Source: Cellvibrionaceae bacterium 1162T.S.0a.05 (GTDB lineage Bacteria > Pseudomonadota > Gammaproteobacteria > Pseudomonadales > Cellvibrionaceae). Taken from it: 64,000 bases of DNA. Below are positions 7,903 through 19,502 of this stretch, in pieces. Under the pieces are notes generated by a model that saw only the letters and a list, made by a program, of their open reading frames with translations, had not been told where the DNA came from and ran no database searches. Positions within the stretch are counted from its first letter, which is position 1. Each line of letters begins with the position of its first letter. The translations under genes and the position numbers were made by a program. The stretch spans positions 2,198,392 to 2,262,391 of the forward strand of contig LANB01000001.1 in assembly GCA_000964245.1 (NCBI GenBank), read 5' to 3'.

Positions 7903-8375
7903 TTATCTAATATGAATTTGGTGTCTCAAACCTTTCAAAATTTCACACTATTTCATCTTGCTACGCTGATGGTGAGGGAGCGGAAAGGCGTTTTGGCGGA
8001 GTGGGGATGCTTGTTCCGAATGGGTGTTTGATCTTGGGCCGGGTGTTTTATCGTGGACATAAAAATGTCATGCCGATGTCATTTGCAAGAAAAACGACAC
8101 ATTCGTGTTAATTTTATGTAATAAAAATGTCACAAAAATATTTTTCTTCTGAAAAAATTTATAAAAAATTGAACTTTTTTAGCTAAGTGCTTGTTCTGCT
8201 TGAATGAATCAGGATGCATTGGTTTTAAAAAACAATTTTATATTCGTGTGGATTCTGGTTCATGATCTTTCTGTAACAATATTGAAATATTCAGAACTCA
8301 GAATGCCCAAACATTAAATTCGGGGGAATAAAGTGACATTTCCCCGGTGAATTGATTGTTTGGGGATCCGTCACA
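7903..8375 (+). promoter_or_regulatory. Gene-free leader of the TonB receptor
   Basis: About 470 AT-rich bases with no credible frame on either strand. It contains the Pho-box-like repeats at 8054-8082, a lone ATGTCAC half-site at 8128-8134, and a 6-bp hairpin (8323-8328 with 8340-8345) just before the receptor start. The length suggests a long regulated leader. Confidence 0.5.
8054..8082 (+). promoter_or_regulatory. Pho-box-like triple repeat upstream of the TonB receptor
   Basis: Three heptamers are phased at exactly 11 bp: TGGACAT (8054-8060), ATGTCAT (8065-8071) and ATGTCAT (8076-8082). The second and third each match six of seven bases of the PhoB half-site CTGTCAT with the canonical 4-bp gap; the AAAA gap between the first two also fits. 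No good -10 lies 10-11 bp downstream, so the exact promoter is uncertain. The regulator assignment is inferred. Confidence 0.5.
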
Positions 8376-11300
8376 ATGTTCCATAAGTTTCGACCGCTTC
8401 TGGTCGCCACCCTTTTATTTTTTTCTTTTAATGTTTTCTCAGCAGAAATGTTGGTCAACGTCTTTCTTAATGCGCGGCCGGTTCAAGGTGCGCAAGTCAG
8501 TGTCAACGGTGTGAACGTCGGCGCGACTTCAGAATCCGGAAGTATTGAAGCGTCTGTTAATCCGGGCAAAAACAAGGTGCAGATTTCGAAAGACCTTGTT
8601 GTTATATCCGAATATGAATTTAGTGTTGACGATGATCAAAATGTTGAGATCGCCTTTAAATTTTCGGAATTAAGCGAAGAGCCCGAAATTAATTTTGAAA
8701 AATATAAGCTTGATGAGCAGGGAAGTGGAGCAATCGGGATTCTTCAGGGTGTTGTTCTTGATGAGCAACAAGCGCGTGTCGCTAACGCAATAATTACGGT
8801 TGAAGATACCGGGGAAAGTGCCACAACCAACAGTTTGGGTGGCTATATTCTGGAACTGCCGCGCGGTTACTACACTTTATTGATTGAGCACCCGGATTAC
8901 CGGGTTAACAGGGAAGAAGATGTTCGCGTCGTCTCCAATATTGGGGTTGCGGTCACCAGCACCTTGCATCCGCGTCCTTTGAATCGCGTTCAAATCGATG
9001 CGCCTACGATGCCAATCATTGAAGAAACCAAAGTATTGGGTACCTTCGTTCCGACGGAAACCACAACCGATATGGAGCGTATGTCTTATGCAATTGTCGA
9101 TGCGATTGATGCGGAGCAATTAAAACGTTTTGGTGACAGTTCCGTTGCATCGGCTATTGCGCGCATTGCTGGTGTGACCATCGCCGAAGACAAGTACGCA
9201 GTCGTGCGTGGTTTGGATGGGCGCTACATTTCTTCGACGCTTAACGGAAATTTAATGCCGACCACAGACCCGATGCGTCGAGATGTCCAGTTGGATTTAT
9301 TTTCCGCAAATATCATCGGGAGTATCGAAATTCAGAAAAGTTACACCGTAGATATGCCCGGTGATACCACGGGCGGTTCCGTGGGAATGAACACCAAGGA
9401 CGTGCCAGATGGCTATACGCATCAATTGTCTGTCGGTCTGGGTTATCTCGACGGTGTGACCGGTGAAGATATTGTCACTTACGAGGGCAGTGACAGCGAT
9501 TGGTTGACCTGGGATGATGGCTTGCGGGAATTGCCTGCAGAAATCAATGAGACCTTCCAGGCATTTGTAGGCCCGAATGTGTATTCGCCCAACACCTGCA
9601 ATATTACGGGGTGTGACATTACCTTTGAAGAAAATGCACGCCTTGCGCAACAATTTCCGGTTATTTACAACGTGAAAAGCGAAAGCGCTTCACTGCCATA
9701 CAATTTTGGTTATGCGCTCGGTAATGTACATGATCTATCGGCGGGTGAGCTAGGTTATTACGGATCTTTCGCCTACGGAAATAAAATCAGTAACCGTATT
9801 GATGCTTACATTGCAGATGAAAATGTCAGCGCGAATTACAGCCTGAGCAAGAAAAGTGCTGCAATGAACGGTTATTTTGTTATCGGACTTGAGGATAACT
9901 TCGACGCAAATTGGGTCAGTAAAACGATTTTCTTGCGTCAGTCGGATGATGCGACGCGCTATGAAACAGGGTTTAACGTCGATGATGAAAATGACTACGA
10001 AACCGCAACCTTGCATTGGGTTGAGCGGGAATTTATCGCACAGCAATTTTCTGGCGATAAGTTGTTTGCTGGTAAGCATGACCTGAAATGGCGACTGGGC
10101 TTCTCGGAAACCAACATGCTGGAACCCGACCGTCGCACCTGGACTTATATTGGTGATGTTTTCATCCCAACACAAACCGAAAGACGTTTTTCGGAGCTCA
10201 GTGAAAACGGATTAGACATCGGCCTCGACTACGGTTTTACTTTCGATGTTACTGATTCTGCGAGTATGGATTTCAGCTCAGGTTTTCTCTTCAATAACCG
10301 CGAGCGAGACTGGTATTTGGCGCGATTCAGTTTCCGTCAGGGCCAGGGTGGTATACCTGACGATACCAGTGCAGACCCCGAAATTCAGTTGAGCACATCG
10401 TCCTTACAAGATCAGCACTATCAATTATTTAAAAGCACAACCAATACGGATAGCTATACCGCAGAAGTTGAAACCACCGCATTTTATGTTAATACCATTA
10501 CACATTTTGATAACGGTGTTAGCCTGGTTGCCGGTTTACGTGTTGAAGACAACATGCAAGCCCTGCTTTACCCTTACTCGGTTGGCCCTATTGAAGATGT
10601 GCTTGATGAATCGCACACGCTGCCCGCTTTCTCCTTGTCCTATGATCTGGATGATGCATGGAAATTCAGAGGCTCGTTCAGTCAAACAGTCTCGCGCCCG
10701 GGTTTAATTGAGCGTTCGCGTTCATCTTCTTTCGATTCTGTGACCTACGAACAAATTTTTGGTAACCCGGAGCTGGTCACAGCTGAGATAGATAACCTGG
10801 ATTTGCGGATTGAATATTATTTCAGTGACGGTGGTAGCGCATCTTTTGCGTGGTTTACCAAAACCATCGATAACCCAATAGAACGAACCGTTCCCGATGC
10901 ATCCGGGTCCGCGGCGCGCAACTCCTACACCTTTAGAAACTCCCTGAGTGCCGACCTCGACGGTATTGAACTGGATTTCAATAAGCAAATTTACGATGGC
11001 AATAGTTGGGCAGTTTTGATCGGTGGCAACATTGCGTATATCGATTCCTCTGTCGATCTGGATGAAGAAAGTCTTCGCCTTGAAGGCGATGATGCTCAAG
11101 GTCGAGAACTGCAGGGGCAGAGCCCCATTCTCGTTAATTTGCAAGTGGGTATCGATCACGTTCCGACGGGACAAGCTTTCACCTTATTGATTAATTCCTT
11201 CGATGACAAAATGTACAAAGTCGGTCGCGGATCAGACTTTGGAAATGAAATTGAGTTAGGCCGGACCTCGCTTGATCTCAGTTATGAAAAGGAATTTGAA

Positions 11301-11432
11301 AATGCATCCAAAATAACGTTCAGAATTAAAAATTTATTGGATGAAAATGTTGAGTACTCACAAAACGGCAACACTATTGAGGGATACTCGAGAGGTACCG
11401 AATTCACAGCAAAGTACACGCATAATTTTTAA
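8376..11432 (+). CDS. TonB-dependent outer-membrane receptor
   Basis: A receptor of about 1018 residues importing a ligand across the outer membrane with TonB energy. A signal peptide ends near FSAEM. Two small beta domains precede the plug; the second (GILQGVVLDEQQARVANAII) is carboxypeptidase-regulatory-like. The plug carries MPGDTTGGSVGMNTKDVPDG, and the rest is a 22-strand-type barrel ending in Phe (YTHNF), as needed for BAM insertion. A TTG at 8352 would extend the frame, but ATG 8376, after GGGGA, starts directly at the signal peptide. It sits behind Pho-box-like repeats and upstream of a surface lipoprotein, a cytochrome and a PhoX-like phosphatase, suggesting a phosphorus-containing ligand. 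The ligand is not proven by sequence. Confidence 0.9.
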   Translation: MFHKFRPLLVATLLFFSFNVFSAEMLVNVFLNARPVQGAQVSVNGVNVGATSESGSIEASVNPGKNKVQISKDLVVISEYEFSVDDDQNVEIAFKFSELSEEPEINFEKYKLDEQGSGAIGILQGVVLDEQQARVANAIITVEDTGESATTNSLGGYILELPRGYYTLLIEHPDYRVNREEDVRVVSNIGVAVTSTLHPRPLNRVQIDAPTMPIIEETKVLGTFVPTETTTDMERMSYAIVDAIDAEQLKRFGDSSVASAIARIAGVTIAEDKYAVVRGLDGRYISSTLNGNLMPTTDPMRRDVQLDLFSANIIGSIEIQKSYTVDMPGDTTGGSVGMNTKDVPDGYTHQLSVGLGYLDGVTGEDIVTYEGSDSDWLTWDDGLRELPAEINETFQAFVGPNVYSPNTCNITGCDITFEENARLAQQFPVIYNVKSESASLPYNFGYALGNVHDLSAGELGYYGSFAYGNKISNRIDAYIADENVSANYSLSKKSAAMNGYFVIGLEDNFDANWVSKTIFLRQSDDATRYETGFNVDDENDYETATLHWVEREFIAQQFSGDKLFAGKHDLKWRLGFSETNMLEPDRRTWTYIGDVFIPTQTERRFSELSENGLDIGLDYGFTFDVTDSASMDFSSGFLFNNRERDWYLARFSFRQGQGGIPDDTSADPEIQLSTSSLQDQHYQLFKSTTNTDSYTAEVETTAFYVNTITHFDNGVSLVAGLRVEDNMQALLYPYSVGPIEDVLDESHTLPAFSLSYDLDDAWKFRGSFSQTVSRPGLIERSRSSSFDSVTYEQIFGNPELVTAEIDNLDLRIEYYFSDGGSASFAWFTKTIDNPIERTVPDASGSAARNSYTFRNSLSADLDGIELDFNKQIYDGNSWAVLIGGNIAYIDSSVDLDEESLRLEGDDAQGRELQGQSPILVNLQVGIDHVPTGQAFTLLINSFDDKMYKVGRGSDFGNEIELGRTSLDLSYEKEFENASKITFRIKNLLDENVEYSQNGNTIEGYSRGTEFTAKYTHNF

Positions 11433-11439
11433 TGGCAGT

Positions 11440-11478
11440 CGAATACGTTCGTCAGATGCGGCAAGCGTATTCGGTTTT
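11440..11478 (+). terminator. Hairpin between the receptor and lipoprotein genes
   Basis: An 8-bp stem CGAATACG / CGTATTCG (11440-11447 with 11466-11473) with an 18-nt loop and a short T-rich tail. It could be a leaky terminator or an mRNA-stabilising structure that sets different levels of receptor and lipoprotein. Confidence 0.5.
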
Positions 11479-11489
11479 CTTTAATAAAA

Positions 11490-11507
11490 GCGTCATAGAA
11501 CTTTGTT
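11490..11507 (+). promoter_or_regulatory. Weak Pho-box-like repeat before the lipoprotein gene
   Basis: GCGTCAT-AGAA-CTTTGTT has the 7-4-7 spacing, but its second half-site is poor. Its place, just after the receptor terminator and 43 bases before the lipoprotein ATG, is what makes it worth noting. Confidence 0.25.
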
Positions 11508-11550
11508 ACTTAAGCAACACTATTTGAAAACCCAGAGATAAGAGATAGCT

Positions 11551-14364
11551 ATGAATAAACTACAACTTATTTTGGCGCTAGGCAGCGCGTCATTGTTTCT
11601 GGCGGCTTGCGGCGGATCAAGCTCAGGTCCGGGAACGGGCTCTTCCAGTTCCAGCTCAAGTTCCAGTGGTAGCAGCGCGAGCTGTGAAACAAATTTACCG
11701 TCTTTTGTAGCGTGTACAGAAGGTGACACCGCAGATATTTATACTATCAGTGGTGCAATTACTGAAGATTTCACCATCGACATGAGTGCAACAAAAGAGT
11801 GGCGTTTACAAGGCACTGTTACAGTGGGCACAGGTAACACCACAACAGTCAATAATGATGACGACGTGGCGGCAGTTCGCGCGGCAGGTGTTGAGCTTGT
11901 TATCGAGCCCGGTGTCAGCGTCGGCGCTTATGACGATGCGAAATTAATTGTTACTCGCGGTTCAACAATCAATGCAGCGGGTACCGCAGCAATGCCAATC
12001 ACTTTCAGCTCTGTTGCAGATGCCGACTTCGATGGCGAAGGCGAGTGGGGTGGTATTGTGGTTCAAGGTTTTGCGCCTCAATACGGTGCGGGTAACACCG
12101 GCGCGTGTTTTGGAAGCGGAACAACCTGTAACGTAGACGGCGAAGGCGGTGACGACATCGGTGTTTACGGCGGCAACGACGAAGCAGATAACAGTGGTGT
12201 GATTCGTTATGTTCGTATCGCTGAAGGCGGTTTGGTTGCTGGCCCGGATAACGAAGTGAACGGATTAACCTTGCAAGGCGTCGGTTACGGCACCACGGTT
12301 GAATACGTTCAGGTTCACGGCAACCTCGATGATGGTATCGAGTGGTTTGGTGGAACTGTTAACGTTAAGTACGCGGTTCTGACGAACAACGACGATGACG
12401 ATATCGACTTCGATGAAGGTTATGTGGGTAATATCCAACACGCTATTGTGTTGAAAAACCAAACGAAAATCGCACCGACTGGAAGCAATGACCCTCGCGG
12501 TATTGAAGCGAACAGTTCCGACGAAGATTACGTTCCACAAACCAATGCGGTTCTTGCCAACGTGACGGTTATCGGTGGCCCGGTAAACAATGCTGACGGT
12601 AATGAGCAGCCTGGTATGCGTTTGCGTGGTTCGCTAACGGCCACAGTGTATAACTCGGTAGTCGAAGGCTTTGACACAGGGTGTATCCGCATTGACGATT
12701 CTGACATCGACGGTGAAGGTGCAGGTACAGAAATCGTTGACTCCACAGTCTCTCTTTACAATGTATTGGGAAATTGTGCAGATGGTTTCTACGATAAGCG
12801 TGATGCCGATGTTGCCGAAAATGCTGTTGGCACAACCGTGACTTTTGATGCGGCTTACGCAGTGACTGAAGCGACCGCCTCCTTGCCTTCTGCGGTTGAA
12901 ATTGCAGCGGTAGGAAACTCAGGTTTCACCTTTGATGCAACTGATTACATCGGTGCAGTTGCACCGGGAACAGATGCGGCAAATGCCTGGTGGGCAGGTT
13001 GGACTTTGCCTGGTACGTTGGCAGATGTTGCAGAAGTGGTTCTCCCGGACGAAACGCCAGACTTCGTAACGTGTGCAGACAGTGTTTGCACCATCACGGG
13101 TTCAATTTTACAGGACTACACTTTGGTACCCAGCGTTGAATGGCGCATTGACGGAACTGTGACTGTCGGTAACGGAAACACGACGACAGTGTCTAACGAT
13201 GACGACGTCGCGGCCTTGCGCGATGCTGGTGTGACCTTGACCATTAACCCCGGTGTTAGCGTGGGCGCATTTGATGATGGCAAACTTATCATCACGCGCG
13301 GTTCAAAAATTATGGCAGAAGGCCTGTCATACGCGCCGATCACGTTCAGTTCGGTTGCCGATGCAGACTACGACGGTATCGGTGAATGGGGTGGTCTTGT
13401 TGTTCAAGGTTTTGCACCGCAATACGGCGCGGGTAATACCGGAGCATGTTACGGTGCAGGCACGACCTGTAACGTAGATGGTGAAGGCGGCGATGATATC
13501 GGTGTTTACGGCGGTAACGACCCGGCAGATAACAGTGGTGTGATTCGCTATGTGCGTATCGCGGAAGGCGGACTGGTTGCTGGCCCGGACAACGAAGTGA
13601 ACGGTTTGACGCTGCAAGGTGTCGGTCATGGAACAACCGTTGAGTATGTGCAGGTTCACGGAAACCAGGACGACGGCATCGAGTGGTTCGGCGGCACTGT
13701 TAACGTTAAGTACGCAGTGTTAACGAACAACGATGATGACGATCTCGACTACGACGAAGGCTTCCAGGGTAACATCCAGCACGTTATCGTCCGCAAGGAT
13801 CCTAACAAAGCGGATCCCACAGGTTCCAATGACCCACGCGGAATCGAAGCGAACAGCTCCGACGAAGACTATGTGCCACAAACTATGGCGGTACTGTCAA
13901 ACATTACCCTGATCGGTTCAGATATTTCTGACAGCAACTGGGGCATGCGTTTGCGTGGCGCCGTCACCACGGCGATTCATAACAGCGCGATTATCGACTT
14001 CGATAATGGTTGTGTTCGTATCGACGATGCCGATATCGACGGTTCCGGTGCGGGTGATGTTATTGAAGCGTCTGATATTACCTTTAACAATGTTATTGGT
14101 AACTGTGATGCAGGTTTCTACACACACGAAACGGCTGATACTGAGTCGGGGACAGTGGGTGCGCAAACCTTTACGCTGGATGCTGCATGGGCTATCGCTG
14201 AAGCTGTTGGTCAACTCGACGCTGCCGTGGAAGTAACGGCACAAGACAACGGTTCAGATTTCGAGTTCGACGCAACGGATTACATCGGTGCCGTTGAGCC
14301 CGGTACCACTGCGGCTGAAGCCTGGTGGGCTGGCTGGATTTTACCGGGTACCCTGGACCAGTAG
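11551..14364 (+). CDS. Duplicated beta-helix surface lipoprotein
   Basis: A 937-residue lipoprotein with lipobox LAAC (Cys20), then a Gly/Ser-rich tether with a run of nine serines, then two tandem homologous units of about 435 residues (about 51-490 and 503-937). Each unit has the look of a right-handed parallel beta-helix, with short repeating strands (EWGGIVVQGF, VIRYVRIAEGG, VEYVQVHGN, VKYAVLTNNDDDD), many acidic clusters that could bind calcium, and the same end (AWWAGW.LPGTL). The tether and acidic character suit a surface-exposed ligand-capture protein working with the upstream receptor, analogous to SusD beside SusC though not homologous. The ligand is inferred from context to be phosphorus-related. 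Confidence 0.8.
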   Translation: MNKLQLILALGSASLFLAACGGSSSGPGTGSSSSSSSSSGSSASCETNLPSFVACTEGDTADIYTISGAITEDFTIDMSATKEWRLQGTVTVGTGNTTTVNNDDDVAAVRAAGVELVIEPGVSVGAYDDAKLIVTRGSTINAAGTAAMPITFSSVADADFDGEGEWGGIVVQGFAPQYGAGNTGACFGSGTTCNVDGEGGDDIGVYGGNDEADNSGVIRYVRIAEGGLVAGPDNEVNGLTLQGVGYGTTVEYVQVHGNLDDGIEWFGGTVNVKYAVLTNNDDDDIDFDEGYVGNIQHAIVLKNQTKIAPTGSNDPRGIEANSSDEDYVPQTNAVLANVTVIGGPVNNADGNEQPGMRLRGSLTATVYNSVVEGFDTGCIRIDDSDIDGEGAGTEIVDSTVSLYNVLGNCADGFYDKRDADVAENAVGTTVTFDAAYAVTEATASLPSAVEIAAVGNSGFTFDATDYIGAVAPGTDAANAWWAGWTLPGTLADVAEVVLPDETPDFVTCADSVCTITGSILQDYTLVPSVEWRIDGTVTVGNGNTTTVSNDDDVAALRDAGVTLTINPGVSVGAFDDGKLIITRGSKIMAEGLSYAPITFSSVADADYDGIGEWGGLVVQGFAPQYGAGNTGACYGAGTTCNVDGEGGDDIGVYGGNDPADNSGVIRYVRIAEGGLVAGPDNEVNGLTLQGVGHGTTVEYVQVHGNQDDGIEWFGGTVNVKYAVLTNNDDDDLDYDEGFQGNIQHVIVRKDPNKADPTGSNDPRGIEANSSDEDYVPQTMAVLSNITLIGSDISDSNWGMRLRGAVTTAIHNSAIIDFDNGCVRIDDADIDGSGAGDVIEASDITFNNVIGNCDAGFYTHETADTESGTVGAQTFTLDAAWAIAEAVGQLDAAVEVTAQDNGSDFEFDATDYIGAVEPGTTAAEAWWAGWILPGTLDQ
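11701..14361 (+). repeat. Internal tandem duplication of about 1.3 kb
   Basis: The two halves of the lipoprotein (about 11701-13020 and 13057-14361) align from start to end at protein level, with near-identical stretches such as NTTTV.NDDDVAA and NDPRGIEANSSDEDYVP. The DNA copies differ at many third positions, so the duplication is old and kept by selection. Confidence 0.85.
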
Positions 14365-14397
14365 CGCACTTCAAAGCGTTAATAAATAAAGCTATAA

Positions 14398-14422
14398 AAG
14401 CCGCGCTTCGGCGCGGTTTTTT
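14398..14422 (+). terminator. Intrinsic terminator after the lipoprotein gene
   Basis: CCGCGC-TTCG-GCGCGG (14401-14416), a stable UUCG tetraloop hairpin followed by six T. It ends the receptor-lipoprotein unit, and a new Pho-like promoter begins ten bases later. Confidence 0.93.
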
Positions 14423-14431
14423 CGTTTAAGG

Positions 14432-14465
14432 CTTTCATAAAAACGTCATCCGGGTGTCTTATTGT
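14432..14465 (+). promoter_or_regulatory. Pho-box-like promoter of the cytochrome/PhoX pair
   Basis: CTTTCAT-AAAA-ACGTCAT at 14432-14449 has the canonical 7-4-7 layout and matches 15 of 18 bases of an ideal PhoB box with an AAAA gap. A possible -10, TATTGT at 14460-14465, lies ten bases downstream, the distance seen in Pho promoters. It precedes the cytochrome gene start by about 110 bases. Confidence 0.6.
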
Positions 14466-14556
14466 GTGATCCGGAACAACGTGATACGGATGTTTTAGGG
14501 ACAAACAATTTACACACGGATGTGTAACCCTCTAGTGCAATCGAAGTTTTATTTCC

Positions 14557-16278
14557 ATGAAAGATAAAAAAAAACGCCTGTTAATAACACTACTATTGGC
14601 CACGACTTTTTGTGCGACGCAACCAAGTGTTGCGGCACAAAGTGAGTTGGATCATCACGAAAAAATTATCGCGGGGTTGCGCAGCTCAAATGACGTGCGT
14701 CCACCCGAGCCGGAAGTTCACCCGGTTGCAGCGCAATTTAACCGGGAAGCAGTTATTCCACCTCAGTGCTACACCCGTACAGAAGGGCAATACAACCCCT
14801 GCTATGTTTGCCACCAAAACGCCATTGAGGGCCGCGAAAACGTGATGAACGACGGTGGCTTGCAGGTCGCCTATAGTTTTAGTGACGAAGGCTTGGTAAA
14901 CCACTGGCAAAATCTTTTTGAAGACCGCAGTGAAGCAGTAAAAAAAATCAGTGATGATGAAATTCTGGAGTGGGTGAATCAAGATAATTACAGCGATTTA
15001 ACTGCGCGTTTGAAAGAAGCGAAATTTGAAGGTTGGATACCGGATTTAAACGGGTTGCATCTTGCTGAAAAGGCCTTTGATGAAGCAGGCTTCGCTAAAG
15101 ACGGCAGCGGCTGGGTTGCCTTCAACTATAAACCGTTACCTAGCACCTTCTGGCCAACAAATGGTTCAACAGATGACGTGATGATCCGTCTCGCTGAAGA
15201 TTTTCGAGTAAATGAACACGGTGAGTATGTTGAGGATATTTATAAAGCCAACCTGGCAATTCTTGAAGCCAGTATAAAAAGCCTTAACAAAATAAGTAGC
15301 TTGCCTATTGATGAACGAAAAATTGGCAAGGATCTCAATGCCGACGGTAAGCTTGAGGTAATTGAAAACATTACAGTTGTCGACCGTTATGTGGGAAAAG
15401 CAGAAAAAATATGGCTGGAAAAAACCATTTACCCGGCTGGAACAGAATTTTTACACACTGTGCGCTACCTCGGTGTAGATGAAAAAAATCAAATCGGTAT
15501 ATCCACGCGTATGAAAGAAGTGCGCTACATGCGCAAGTGGCGAAGTTATCTTAAATCGGTATATGCCCGCCAATACCAATTGGAAGCCTATGAAAAAGAA
15601 GCGGGGCATTTGCCCGGCTACAATCGTATTGGCGACCACGGTTTAGATAATGGCACAGGCTGGGCAATACAGGGTTTTATCGAGGCGCGCGATGGCAGCT
15701 TGCGGATTGCGACGCACGAAGAAAACTTTTTTTGTATGGGCTGTCACAACAGTATTGGTTCTACCATTGATAAAACCTTCAGTTTTGCGCGTAAACCCGA
15801 TGGCGCAGCAGGTTGGGGCTATATCAACTTGAAAGGTATGCCCGATGTGCCCAATAAAGGTGAGACGGAGGGTGAGATACTCACGTATTTAAGACGCGTT
15901 GGCGGCGGTGGTGAATTTCGTAGCAATGAAGAAATGTATGCACGCTGGTTTAAAGAGAACGGTGAGGTGAATGAAGACAAAGTGCGCGCGGCCAAAGACG
16001 TGTATGAATTAATTACCCCTTCACTAAGCCGGGCAATGCAGCTAAATAAAGCCTACCGCACAATTGTTGAACAGCAGGATTATATTTATGGCCGGGATGC
16101 AACGGTAGCGCCACCAAAAAATGTCTATGACCAGGTGAGCAATGAAAGCTCGCCGACTTTACCCGCAGAAAAAATCTACGCTTGGGATATTCGCCTTGAT
16201 TGGTTAAAAAATAATATAACGAATGAGAATGGTTTCGAAAAAAATCATACACCTGTCATATTAACGAAAAATAACTGA
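14557..16278 (+). CDS. Di-haem c-type cytochrome family protein
   Basis: A 573-residue periplasmic protein with an N-terminal signal peptide ending near SVAAQ. Two haem-attachment motifs are present, CYVCH (Cys82-His86) and CMGCH (Cys393-His397), about 310 residues apart. The large haem-free insertion between them and the Lys/Glu-rich surface are unlike small electron-carrier cytochromes. I do not recognise a named enzyme family. The gene is 53 bases upstream of the PhoX-like gene with no terminator between, so they form one operon behind a Pho-like promoter. A redox job linked to the phosphatase, whose family uses an Fe-Ca cofactor, is a reasonable but unproven inference. Confidence 0.75.
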   Translation: MKDKKKRLLITLLLATTFCATQPSVAAQSELDHHEKIIAGLRSSNDVRPPEPEVHPVAAQFNREAVIPPQCYTRTEGQYNPCYVCHQNAIEGRENVMNDGGLQVAYSFSDEGLVNHWQNLFEDRSEAVKKISDDEILEWVNQDNYSDLTARLKEAKFEGWIPDLNGLHLAEKAFDEAGFAKDGSGWVAFNYKPLPSTFWPTNGSTDDVMIRLAEDFRVNEHGEYVEDIYKANLAILEASIKSLNKISSLPIDERKIGKDLNADGKLEVIENITVVDRYVGKAEKIWLEKTIYPAGTEFLHTVRYLGVDEKNQIGISTRMKEVRYMRKWRSYLKSVYARQYQLEAYEKEAGHLPGYNRIGDHGLDNGTGWAIQGFIEARDGSLRIATHEENFFCMGCHNSIGSTIDKTFSFARKPDGAAGWGYINLKGMPDVPNKGETEGEILTYLRRVGGGGEFRSNEEMYARWFKENGEVNEDKVRAAKDVYELITPSLSRAMQLNKAYRTIVEQQDYIYGRDATVAPPKNVYDQVSNESSPTLPAEKIYAWDIRLDWLKNNITNENGFEKNHTPVILTKNN

Positions 16279-16331
16279 AACGCGCGGCGGTTATGCTCCC
16301 AGCAGTTTTACAAACCACTTGGGAGATAACA

Positions 16332-17906
16332 ATGAAAGTAAAAAGCTCTTTGGCCAAAATCGTGGCCGCCACAACAGCAGGACTTTGCGCGCAAGCTGCT
16401 GTTGCAGGAACTGACGTATTTTTTAATCCATTGACGCAAAGTGCGGCAGTGGCCTCGCCAAACCACATTAATGAATTGACCCAACCCTGGGTTGCCCCCG
16501 CCGGTATCAGCCAGGTGAATTTGACCAGCATGGCGGAAATCGAAGCCGATCTCACACAAAGTGTTGTGCGTACAGGGTCGGGTAACGGTCAGTCCATGTT
16601 TGACATGATCGCTTACGACCCTTCAGGTAAATTTCTTTTCATTCCTCATGAAACCGTTTCGGGTGCCGGCTTGTCGCGTTACAGCATTGAAGACGATACC
16701 AACCTTGTCTTGTTTTCCGGTGATGAACAAGGCCCTGCGGGAGACTGGAGCAACGACTACGGTGCTTTCGACCCCGCACGTTTTACCCCAAATGGCACAG
16801 TATGGTTAGGTGAAGAATGGTCTGGTGAAGGTCGAGTGATTGAAGTTGTGAACCCTTTTGCTGACCCTGCTGATATTGAAATCCGCGAAGTACATAGCAT
16901 TGCAAATGTCAGCCACGAAGGAATCTTCTTTAGCAAACAAGACAAACGCACAATCTATTACGTGGACGAAAATAATTCTGGTTCTATTTACAAATTCGTG
17001 ATGAAGAAAAAAGGTGATTACAGTCAGGGCCAAACGTTTGTGTTGGCAGTTGATGCCTTTGATAGTAGTGAAGCATCCAGCAACTGGAATGCTACAAGCA
17101 GTGAACGTACGGGTTTAGCGACCTGGCTTCCTTTAACAGATAAAAACGGTACGCCCTTGAGTGCAACTGATCCATTTGCTGCTGGTCAGGGTAACGGCCG
17201 TTCTGCCGCTGACGAAGTAGGTGGTACACCTTATGGTCGCCCGGAAGATACTGAAGTGGGACGACTCGCAAATGGCAACGAAGTGCTGTACGTTGCTGCA
17301 ACTTCTGAGCGCACGGTTTATTCCATTGAAATTCTGAATAGCGAAAAAGCGATTGTCCGCGAGTTTGCCAGTGATGCCAATACGCCAAAAAATATGGGCT
17401 TCCCGGCAACGACAGCGGTGATGAACTCTCCGGATAACCTCGCACAGGATGCCCTCGGCAATATTTATATTATTGAAGATGCGCCCAACAGTTCAGACGT
17501 GGGTGGCGATATCTGGTTTGTTCGCGATATTGACGGTGACGGTGAGGGAGAGTCAATTTATCACTTCCTCAGCATTCAGGCAGACGGTGCCGAAGCAACG
17601 GGTATGATTTTCAACCCTGCTAAACCCACGCAATTTGTCGTTGCGGTGCAACACCCGGATAGCACCAACATCGAAGTGAATCCAGAAGGATTTGGTGATG
17701 CAGTTTGGTTGTTCGATCTTGAAGATGTTGTACCACCACGCTGTGACAAATACGGAATTAATCATCACTACTTTGGTGGTTATAGCTATCGTCGTCACTA
17801 CGAGCGTACCTGCTCCAATATGAGTGATTTCAATTTCACTTATCTACTCAAGAAAGCGGGCTATAAAAAGCCCAAGCACAAGAAACATTGGAAAAAGAAA
17901 CACTGA
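16332..17906 (+). CDS. PhoX-like (DUF839) phosphatase
   Basis: A 524-residue exported protein of the PhoX/DUF839 family, whose characterised members are periplasmic alkaline phosphatases with Fe and Ca cofactors. Signal peptide at residues 1-25 (cleavage near AVAG). Family motifs appear in order: PHE (about 105-107), GEEWSGEG (about 160-167), SHEG (about 194-197), YYVDE, RPEDTEV (about 303-309), SPDNLAQD (about 366-373), EATG (about 421-424) and QHP (about 440-442). GGGAG six bases upstream selects ATG 16332 over an earlier in-frame ATG at 16293. The last 20 residues are His/Lys-rich and unusual, perhaps metal- or surface-binding. Whether it is an alkaline phosphatase or a relative with another ester substrate cannot be settled here. 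Confidence 0.82.
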   Translation: MKVKSSLAKIVAATTAGLCAQAAVAGTDVFFNPLTQSAAVASPNHINELTQPWVAPAGISQVNLTSMAEIEADLTQSVVRTGSGNGQSMFDMIAYDPSGKFLFIPHETVSGAGLSRYSIEDDTNLVLFSGDEQGPAGDWSNDYGAFDPARFTPNGTVWLGEEWSGEGRVIEVVNPFADPADIEIREVHSIANVSHEGIFFSKQDKRTIYYVDENNSGSIYKFVMKKKGDYSQGQTFVLAVDAFDSSEASSNWNATSSERTGLATWLPLTDKNGTPLSATDPFAAGQGNGRSAADEVGGTPYGRPEDTEVGRLANGNEVLYVAATSERTVYSIEILNSEKAIVREFASDANTPKNMGFPATTAVMNSPDNLAQDALGNIYIIEDAPNSSDVGGDIWFVRDIDGDGEGESIYHFLSIQADGAEATGMIFNPAKPTQFVVAVQHPDSTNIEVNPEGFGDAVWLFDLEDVVPPRCDKYGINHHYFGGYSYRRHYERTCSNMSDFNFTYLLKKAGYKKPKHKKHWKKKH

Positions 17907-17935
17907 TTCAATTCCAATATCGTGAACCTTCCTCT

Positions 17936-17963
17936 AGCCCTGCATTCTGCGGGGCTTTTTTTT
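17936..17963 (+). terminator. Intrinsic terminator of the cytochrome/PhoX operon
   Basis: An 8-bp stem AGCCCTGC / GCGGGGCT with a 5-nt loop and eight T, followed by an unusual run of G. It lies 29 bases after the PhoX-like stop. Confidence 0.9.
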
Positions 17964-18458: not shown

Positions 18459-19271
18459 TCACGCCGCGCGATTGTTCACAACAACCGCTTCCGATTCCGG
18501 CTCTTTCTCCTCGACCACTTTGACATCTTCCACATAGTGAATAATGCGCAAATGCCCCGCATGATCCTCCACTAAAGCAGTACAACTCTCAATCCAATCT
18601 CCGGTGTTGCAATAAGTGAAACCGTCTTTGTGGTCCAGGTCACAAGCGTGAATATGCCCGCATACCACACCGTCGTAGTGGCGACGTTTGGCTTCGGCGA
18701 TACACTGTTGTTTGTAGCGCTCTATTGCTTTGCGAGCGCCAGCGACGTTTTCTTTAATTTGGCCTGCGAGTGAAAAGTAAGGCTTGCCGAACCATTTGCG
18801 GAAGCGGTTTGCCCAGCGGTTAATAAATAAAAGAAAGTGATACAGCACATCACCGGCAAAGCGGGTGAGCCAATCGAATTTCATGTAGGCGTCCATGGCG
18901 TCGCCATGAAAAATCAAGAATTTCTTACCCTCAGCCGTTTCGTAATCATATTCCATGTGGATTTCGACAGGGCCGATCTTCTCGCCATCAAAACGCCGAA
19001 AGGGGTCATCGTGATTGCCCGGAATATAAATAACGCGTGTGCCTTTATCCGCTAACTCATAGAGTTTGAGGAGGATGTGGTAGTGCTCTTCCGGCCAGAA
19101 AATGCGTTTTTTCAAGGACCACAAATCCACAACATCGCCGACCAGAAACAGAGTGTCGCATTTCAGGTTGCTCAGGAAGTTGTCGAGGTATTCGGCTTTG
19201 CAGTCTTTAAAGCCCAGATGTATATCGGAAATCCACACGGTGCGCGCATTGACGCAAGGCGAAACTGACAT
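18459..19271 (-). CDS. LpxH-like metallophosphoesterase
   Basis: A 270-residue calcineurin-like hydrolase of the UDP-2,3-diacylglucosamine diphosphatase (LpxH/LpxH2) group, a lipid A pathway step. All five metal-site motifs are visible: SDIHLG (near 16-21), GDVVD, GNHDD, FHGD and CGHIHA. It is cytosolic or membrane-peripheral, with hydrophobic and basic stretches in the middle (LYHFLLFINRWANRFRKW). The acidic, Val-rich C-terminal tail is beyond the usual family length. It lies divergent to the TetR regulator. The LpxR-like gene nearby makes a lipid A link plausible, but related family members have other substrates. Confidence 0.8.
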   Translation of the reverse strand: MSVSPCVNARTVWISDIHLGFKDCKAEYLDNFLSNLKCDTLFLVGDVVDLWSLKKRIFWPEEHYHILLKLYELADKGTRVIYIPGNHDDPFRRFDGEKIGPVEIHMEYDYETAEGKKFLIFHGDAMDAYMKFDWLTRFAGDVLYHFLLFINRWANRFRKWFGKPYFSLAGQIKENVAGARKAIERYKQQCIAEAKRRHYDGVVCGHIHACDLDHKDGFTYCNTGDWIESCTALVEDHAGHLRIIHYVEDVKVVEEKEPESEAVVVNNRAA

Positions 19272-19502
19272 AGGGGGTGCTCCTCAGTTTTCGCAAAGTT
19301 TGGCGGCCCCGTATGACGTTTTTGTAACAGAAGCTTGAACTTTTGGTGACAAGCACCTGAGCCCCGAACACTGACGTTATAGGTGGTTCACACGAGCGGC
19401 TAAGTGCAATTAACTAACGATATGCGCGAGGGGTGCAGAGGCCTGCGCCAGATGCCAGTGAGTCAGGGAAACACAGTGTTTCAAAATTGTGTATTGAAAT
19501 TT

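Follow-up and report, generated by a model that had tools for sequence, protein, structure and literature searches.

The window analysed here is a 64-kb part of the single-contig, 4.40-Mb genome of Cellvibrionaceae bacterium 1162T.S.0a.05 and contains four consecutive genes on the forward strand that encode a TonB-dependent receptor, a beta-helix lipoprotein, a di-haem c-type cytochrome and a protein of the PhoX family (PF05787). The receptor (8376..11432) has a carboxypeptidase-regulatory-like N-terminal domain, with Pfam matches to plug, barrel and a carboxypeptidase-D-like domain; its frame is open from a TTG codon at 8352, and the ATG at 8376, judged by eye, is probably the start. The lipoprotein (11551..14364), composed of two tandem beta-helix domains, was recognized as ElpS-like by repeat comparison, fold and neighbourhood. 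The cytochrome (14557..16278) contains the haem-binding motifs C82xxC85H86 (haem 1) and C393xxC396H397 (haem 2), the latter in a domain that weakly resembles P460/c'-beta, and an invariant His300. The PhoX-family gene (16332..17906, start read by eye as the ATG at 16332) was assigned through Pfam; its product has a signal peptide that looks like one of the general secretory (Sec) pathway, also judged by eye, and an aspartate (Asp147) in place of the Cys179 of PhoX. An initial annotation of this DNA had proposed the same composition, which was borne out by Pfam matches, CxxCH motifs and fold, and had combined the four genes into one outer-membrane-to-periplasm route. As far as examined, the row instead consists of two Pho modules brought together locally, from now on referred to as module 1 (receptor and lipoprotein) and module 2 (cytochrome and PhoX).

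This separation is evident in a set of 58 related genomes that includes the one of the window. Of these, 20 contain the cytochrome; a PhoX-family gene adjoins it in 19 of the 20 loci fetched around it, and none of these 20 loci contains the receptor or the lipoprotein. Likewise, the receptor adjoins the lipoprotein in all ten loci fetched around the latter, and cytochrome and PhoX are found in none of these ten. Two cytochrome loci were added later, one with an adjoining PhoX (L311) and one in which PhoX lies at a distance of about 1.4 kb (L312), bringing cytochrome-PhoX adjacency in the related genomes to 20/22 loci. Conserved co-occurrence of the four families, which the initial annotation had suggested as a check, was not seen: across 57 related genomes, 4 of the 8 that match the lipoprotein strongly contain the cytochrome, as do 15 of the other 49 (p = 0.42). 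Since the halves lie apart in 20 cytochrome and 10 receptor/lipoprotein loci of relatives and their co-occurrence is not significant, one conserved four-gene system was rejected and the row is considered a local juxtaposition.

Pho-box-like sites precede the genes of both modules. They were scored with a weight matrix built in-house on the Escherichia coli consensus, and bit scores refer to E. coli-type boxes. An own-strand site was counted if it reached at least 10.5 bits and lay within 300 bp upstream of the start of an open reading frame (ORF). The 11-bp-phased repeats reported earlier before the receptor (8054..8082, forward strand) were confirmed as three half-sites with 11-bp spacing and include, at 8066-8082, TGTCATGCCGATGTCAT, the sole zero-mismatch TGTCAT-N5-TGTCAT found by pattern search in the 4.4-Mb genome; with at most two mismatches, the pattern has 316 genome matches on both strands versus 230 for a control pattern. 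The box reported ahead of the cytochrome/PhoX pair (14432-14449) does match 15/18 bases of an ideal box and, at 15.4 bits, is the top-scoring site of the window; together with a weaker overlapping second unit it spans 14432..14460 on the forward strand. Three further forward-strand sites add to those already reported: one before the receptor (8116..8133, 15.3 bits), a weak one 72 bp ahead of the lipoprotein gene (11479..11496, 11.3 bits) and one 90 bp upstream of the ATG of the PhoX gene, still within the 3' end of the cytochrome gene (16242..16259, 12.2 bits). Scoring with a PhoB-type matrix, also suggested earlier, singled out these genes: own-strand sites are present for 4/4 module genes versus 1/47 other window ORFs (Fisher p = 2e-5), the sole other one being a neighbouring calcineurin-like phosphoesterase gene. 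The whole window contains 15 sites of at least 10.5 bits, compared with 8 when its letters are reversed. As positive controls from the same genome, the pstS promoter scored 17.3 bits and a divergent PstS-like/PAP2 promoter 22.4 and 22.6 bits, and the genome encodes both PhoB (359 bits) and PstB. A hairpin followed by a T-run between the lipoprotein and cytochrome genes (14401..14422, forward strand) is a likely terminator judging by its sequence, its stem being listed by the terminator scan on the opposite strand only, and that scan places another terminator-like hairpin 3' of the PhoX gene (17936..17956, forward strand); in total it gave 20 terminator-like sites versus 13 in shuffles. Based on these two hairpins, the row is read as two transcription units. 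The Pho control proposed earlier is supported by the motifs in the window and by their enrichment ahead of the corresponding genes of both modules in relatives, and both modules are probably PhoB-controlled.

The distribution of module 2 was analysed through one GTDB genome scan, which yielded 453 confirmed relatives of the cytochrome. The best 80 of the 453, among them representatives of Gammaproteobacteria, Verrucomicrobia, Myxococcota and Binatota, were kept and examined by six-frame search for a PhoX-family gene within 600 bp. A PhoX neighbour is present in 75/80 loci, 74 with the gene within 600 bp and one (L159) with a PhoX cut by the contig end. The 74 pairs comprise 41 PhoX-first, 23 cytochrome-first and 10 divergent arrangements. 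Three partner types could be distinguished: PHX2, which is the type found in the window, PHX1, which keeps the cysteine, and a double-PhoX type. PHX1 proteins are mostly circularly permuted: the GAEVTG...QHP blade, C-terminal in PhoX, is N-terminal in 11/13 aligned sequences, the exceptions being L041 and L042 with a C-terminal blade. Partner type tracks the cytochrome tree, requiring 5 changes among typed rows, and with unpaired rows treated as an extra group there are 10 label changes versus a shuffled mean of 36.8. A broadly recurrent third gene was considered and rejected, as neighbour clustering gave mostly lineage-local neighbours, e.g. trk or cys genes; in L041, a gene for a PhoA-type alkaline phosphatase directly follows the pair. 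Several partners show additional features. Members of the PHX1 family (L032, L031 and kin) have collagen-like Gly-x-y repeats after the lipobox, the 1611-aa PhoX partner at L036:4435-9270 is fused to an endonuclease/exonuclease/phosphatase domain (PF03372) and also contains PKD and DUF5017 domains, and a 1488-aa frame in L311 resembles this fusion. The C-termini of two PHX2 proteins (L053:9234-10601 and L026:7836-9335) look, by eye, like PEP-CTERM sorting signals.

The PhoX-family protein of the window matches PF05787 at 65.4 bits (gathering cut-off 24), with the match covering only the C-terminal part of the profile, positions 207-515. Active-site positions, some of them presumed metal ligands, were mapped on the structure 3ZWU of Pseudomonas fluorescens PhoX. 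In the window protein, Asp147 takes the place of the Fe-ligating Cys179 (NC..TPWGT motif), and 55/55 PHX2 letters at this position are Asp, with one gap. Across the 56 PHX2 sequences, E161 and E162 are each conserved in 55/55, E196, R303, E305 and H441 in 56/56, E421 in 55/56 and D368 in 54/56. Loss of PhoX function was considered as well; the remaining ligand positions are kept in PHX2. Compared with classical PhoX (3ZWU, Fe-Ca cofactor), the window enzyme shares PF05787 and the positions of E193/E194, E273, R385, E387, the NSPD Asp, the GxExTG Glu and the QHP His; however, it carries the Cys179 to Asp147 replacement and a di-haem partner gene and does not have a signal of the twin-arginine translocation (Tat) pathway, while most of its PHX1 cousins differ by circular permutation. 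Excerpts of one study describe PhoX and PhoD as Tat-exported enzymes that bind Fe3+ via a Cys thiolate, speculate that Tat export permits cytoplasmic iron insertion and state that PhoD has Cys at the position where purple acid phosphatases have Asp (PMC4223295).

Export signals separate the stand-alone from the haem-paired PhoX-family proteins. A twin-arginine signal was found in 46/48 judged stand-alone proteins of the 58 genomes (25/25, 14/16 and 7/7 in three batches), whereas a signal of the (S/T)RRxFLK type occurs in 0/22 haem-paired ones (the window, 19 others, L311 and L312). The window protein contains no pair of arginines (RR) among its first 40 residues. RR is found in or before the signal region in 5/22 haem-paired proteins, two relatives read RK there, and in L312 the RR lies outside the classical Tat motif. 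The split is significant (Fisher p = 3e-16) and stays so when the five RR cases are counted as Tat (5e-10). Taken together with lipoboxes, these signal peptides make Sec export the natural reading for haem-paired PhoX. The two non-Tat stand-alone proteins are L053 and L301, the latter from a genome that holds the orphan cytochrome L028. L301 is a double-PhoX lipoprotein located on a different contig than this orphan di-haem cytochrome, and the two are perhaps a split pair.

The cytochrome consists of 573 aa with two CxxCH motifs. In 101 sequences of the family, the nearly invariant histidines are those of the two CxxCH motifs and His300 only, the latter being present in 101/101; Cys71 is invariant as well. 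Identity as a di-haem peroxidase of the MauG/bacterial cytochrome c peroxidase type was rejected because PF03150 is not among the 24 families hit by any of 21 members. Searches against the PDB with the single sequence (phmmer) and with a profile of the family gave best E-values of 0.51 and 0.68. A structure model (predicted local distance difference test score, pLDDT, 76) points to P460/c'-beta cytochromes, which make up the first nine Foldseek matches (best E 0.025, not significant alone) and the first twelve VIA-align matches (best Z 4.7, under the tool's safe level, over 135 residues at a root mean square deviation of 3.5). PF16694 was touched at E-values of at most 1 by 17/21 members, the best at 3.5e-4, and domain-level hhalign against P460 gave an E-value of 9e-5 at 59% probability over 117 columns in a local run, while a global run aligned 12 columns. 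Residues ~150-420 have their best fold matches in P460/c'-beta (PF16694), with which they share a GW...GF...CxxCH...D..F signature. The window cytochrome differs by an extra N-terminal haem domain, large insertions and the invariant His300, which in the weak hhalign alignment falls on the ILxK lysine of P460, which we take to be the haem-cross-linking residue.

Pho boxes are also enriched upstream of module 2 in relatives. Two of the 80 loci were dropped for having less than 150 bp of upstream sequence and the 10 divergent ones were kept apart, leaving 68 for scoring, 62 of them with a PhoX partner found and 6 without. The best box has a median of 8.7 bits on the operon strand versus 5.1 on the opposite strand (Wilcoxon p = 1e-4), with a background median of 3.0 bits in 2570 tiles from the same loci. 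At least 10 bits were reached by 23/68 loci on the operon strand (21 with a PhoX partner), compared with 9/68 on the opposite strand and 2/68 with reversed letters. Similarly, in the related genomes, 35 cytochrome/PhoX promoters, counting first and second genes alike and including two from L053, have a median of 8.6 bits versus 5.7 for 214 others (p = 8e-5).

A parallel to this pairing is known from Flavobacterium. According to excerpts of two studies, all Flavobacterium genomes have phoX and the gene for a MauG-like cytochrome in one operon, and the Flavobacterium PhoX is a phosphate-controlled lipoprotein induced by low phosphate (PMC8812569, PMC8115612); expressed alone in Pseudomonas putida, it showed no activity (PMC8812569). 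The pair formed by Fjoh_2478 (PhoX) and Fjoh_2477 (MauG-like) has in common with module 2 a low-phosphate-induced non-classical PhoX beside a c-type cytochrome, MauG being a di-haem protein. Unlike Fjoh_2477, which is listed under PF03150, the window family showed no PF03150 in 21 members and has a P460-like domain instead, so that the P460-like and MauG pairings with PhoX look convergent. Among the literature matches listed, no P460-like cytochrome with PhoX was found in titles and abstract openings. The different di-haem partner, the pairing in other phyla and the Tat split go beyond the Flavobacterium precedent.

Given the non-Tat, haem-paired PhoX proteins and the Flavobacterium parallel, we hypothesize that Sec-exported PhoX-like enzymes need an external haem protein. 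Classical Tat-dependent PhoX would be loaded with iron within the cell and then exported in folded form, whereas a Sec-exported PhoX would be metallated outside, and a redox protein would therefore be needed there. Such a partner could bring the iron of the Fe-Ca centre to the Fe(III) state, hold it there or modify a residue at this centre, with the P460-like haem acting as the oxidising site and haem 1 as electron relay; the mature enzyme would then free phosphate for the Pst transporter. For the window, this would mean a Sec-exported PhoX-like hydrolase dependent on its di-haem partner for the metal site, beside a separate surface module, both probably PhoB-controlled. We put this reading forward tentatively; it may well be correct, if somewhat short of probable. 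In general terms, there might be a class of phosphatases that are Sec-exported unfolded and obtain or keep their Fe-Ca centre outside via a dedicated di-haem P460-like oxidase, having evolved separately from the MauG-PhoX pairing. The existence of this class is possible but doubtful, and we know of no earlier description of it.

A number of observations weigh against a haem-dependent, Sec-exported hydrolase. Hydrolase activity, metal content and expression of the pair are all predictions. The second haem domain is weakly assigned as P460-like and not as a P460: sequence evidence for the relation is slight, and no Pfam or NCBIfam family matches the cytochrome of the window by itself. Five of the 80 cytochromes (L113, L118, L150, L154 and L163) have no PhoX neighbour. 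L053 (genome G029) is a PHX2-like, non-Tat protein from a genome without a cytochrome of this family, and the partner is therefore not absolutely required. PHX1 partners retain the Cys, so the cytochrome does not merely compensate for Cys loss. Signal types were assigned from motifs and by visual inspection rather than with a signal-peptide predictor, and the truncated L293 was left out; moreover, haem-paired PhoX may share ancestry, and the Tat split would therefore contain fewer independent events than rows. As for regulation, 45/68 loci stay below 10 bits, among them all seven Binatota-type loci (L141, L142 and L144-L148), and a score of at least 16 bits is reached by three loci on the opposite strand versus two on the operon strand. 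Lastly, to explain the inactivity of Flavobacterium PhoX in P. putida, the authors themselves suggest poor or incomplete expression or wrong localisation, alongside a need for a cofactor (excerpt of PMC8812569).

Other explanations of the locus were considered. The initial annotation had read receptor, lipoprotein, cytochrome and PhoX as a single organophosphate import-and-cleavage pathway, and the four genes are indeed contiguous, co-oriented and each provided with Pho-like sites; nevertheless, with the halves separate in 30 relative loci, no significant co-occurrence and a terminator-like hairpin between them, this reading is unlikely. It is likewise unlikely that cytochrome and PhoX merely share promoters and are co-regulated but independent in function, the cytochrome serving respiration or nitric oxide (NO)/hydroxylamine chemistry under phosphate stress. 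P460 and c'-beta relatives do act on NO or hydroxylamine, but the pairing occurs in three different gene orders, spans several phyla and involves divergent PhoX partners, whose types track the cytochrome tree.

Two further alternatives concern the PhoX-like protein itself. It could be a PF05787 beta-propeller of another kind, such as one serving in binding or adhesion, with no phosphatase activity and only an incidental connection to phosphate, as might be suspected from the partial Pfam match (207-515), the replaced Cys179 and the collagen-like N-terminal repeats of two scanned PHX1 partners. The strictly conserved ligand positions in 56 sequences and the Pho boxes make this quite improbable. 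Alternatively, the pair could be a redox enzyme: a phosphorus compound in reduced or organic form (e.g. phosphite or phosphonate) would be bound by the propeller of the PhoX-like protein, and the di-haem protein would take up electrons from this compound, phosphate being formed by oxidation. Frequent pairing with a di-haem protein bearing a P460-like, potentially catalytic haem, the changed iron ligand (Cys to Asp) and the Pho boxes would fit such an enzyme. However, PhoX ligand positions apart from this one are retained, no broadly recurring third gene is found nearby and we know of no biochemical precedent for a PhoX-like/di-haem redox enzyme acting on phosphorus compounds, and we regard the proposal as distinctly improbable.

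If PhoX-like enzymes do depend on an external haem partner, the implications would be broader than this locus. Phosphatases of the PhoX type provide one of the main routes by which organic phosphorus is accessed, and haem dependence of a large PhoX branch would tie phosphate scavenging not only to iron but also to haem and redox state. Screens in which PhoX is expressed alone would miss such enzymes, which may have happened with Flavobacterium PhoX. A simple rule would follow, with non-Tat PhoX having a haem partner and Tat PhoX having none.

Module 1 resembles, by description and gene order, the phosphate-starvation pair ElpS (CC0170)/CC0171 of Caulobacter. The lipoprotein has 937 aa and is composed of two ~440-aa halves with ~70% mutual identity. 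Pfam searches with the window protein and with 11 members gave no significant match, only spurious ones, and the SusD family is not among the families matched by the 11 members. The structure model of one half (pLDDT 91.8) gave 50 listed PDB fold matches, which by name include the alginate epimerases AlgG/AlgE4, PfbA, pectate lyases, tailspikes and similar proteins, and which we take to be right-handed beta-helix proteins; none of the 50 attains an E-value of 0.001. Receptor and lipoprotein genes adjoin each other in 26/26 related loci (10 plus 16 further ones) as well as in the window, and relatives' receptor/lipoprotein promoters have a median Pho-box score of 12.0 (n=16) versus 5.8 for other promoters of the same loci (n=222, p = 2.5e-4). 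In L244 and L245, the order is lipoprotein, receptor and then ORFs with type II secretion motifs, as in elpS-cc0171-gsp of Caulobacter (excerpt of PMC2996285); no such motifs were found beside the pair in the other 24 of the 26 loci.

ElpS is made upon phosphate starvation and has been proposed to activate an unknown phosphatase, while cc0171 is reported to be constitutive (excerpts of PMC2996285). In Flavobacterium, the FI and FII lipoproteins encoded beside TonB transporters are induced by low phosphate, and FI, FII and FIII are 31-36% identical to the Caulobacter protein across about half their length (excerpts of PMC8115612). The initial annotation knew of no named system with exactly this composition, a claim that is only partly right given the likeness of the receptor/lipoprotein half to ElpS/CC0171 (PMC2996285). 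Common to ElpS/CC0171, Flavobacterium FI/FII and the window is a surface lipoprotein beside a TonB receptor. Differences are the two beta-helix domains of the window lipoprotein and the reportedly constitutive expression of cc0171 itself. SusCD/PusCD systems also combine a TonB transporter with a surface lipoprotein, but that of the window is a beta-helix protein with no SusD-family match. We propose that the receptor and the ElpS-type surface lipoprotein may capture or present a phosphorus-bearing ligand.

Additional Pho-like sites were found beside other phosphate-related genes. The calcineurin-like phosphoesterase (PF00149) next to module 2 in the window is encoded at 18459-19271 on the reverse strand, with a Pho-like site 59 bp upstream (19313-19330, reverse strand), and is a possible candidate for PlcP of lipid remodelling. 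Two strong divergent Pho boxes at L166:4645-4731 separate a gene for a PstS-like/OmpA-domain protein from those for a PAP2-like phosphatase and an MJ1255-type glycosyltransferase. The top score among the stretches scanned together with the window was a near-perfect 24.1-bit Pho box at L165:8195 (genome 1454194), which lies within an ORF resembling a sensor kinase, about 560 bp ahead of a gene resembling polyphosphate kinase, both named by eye.

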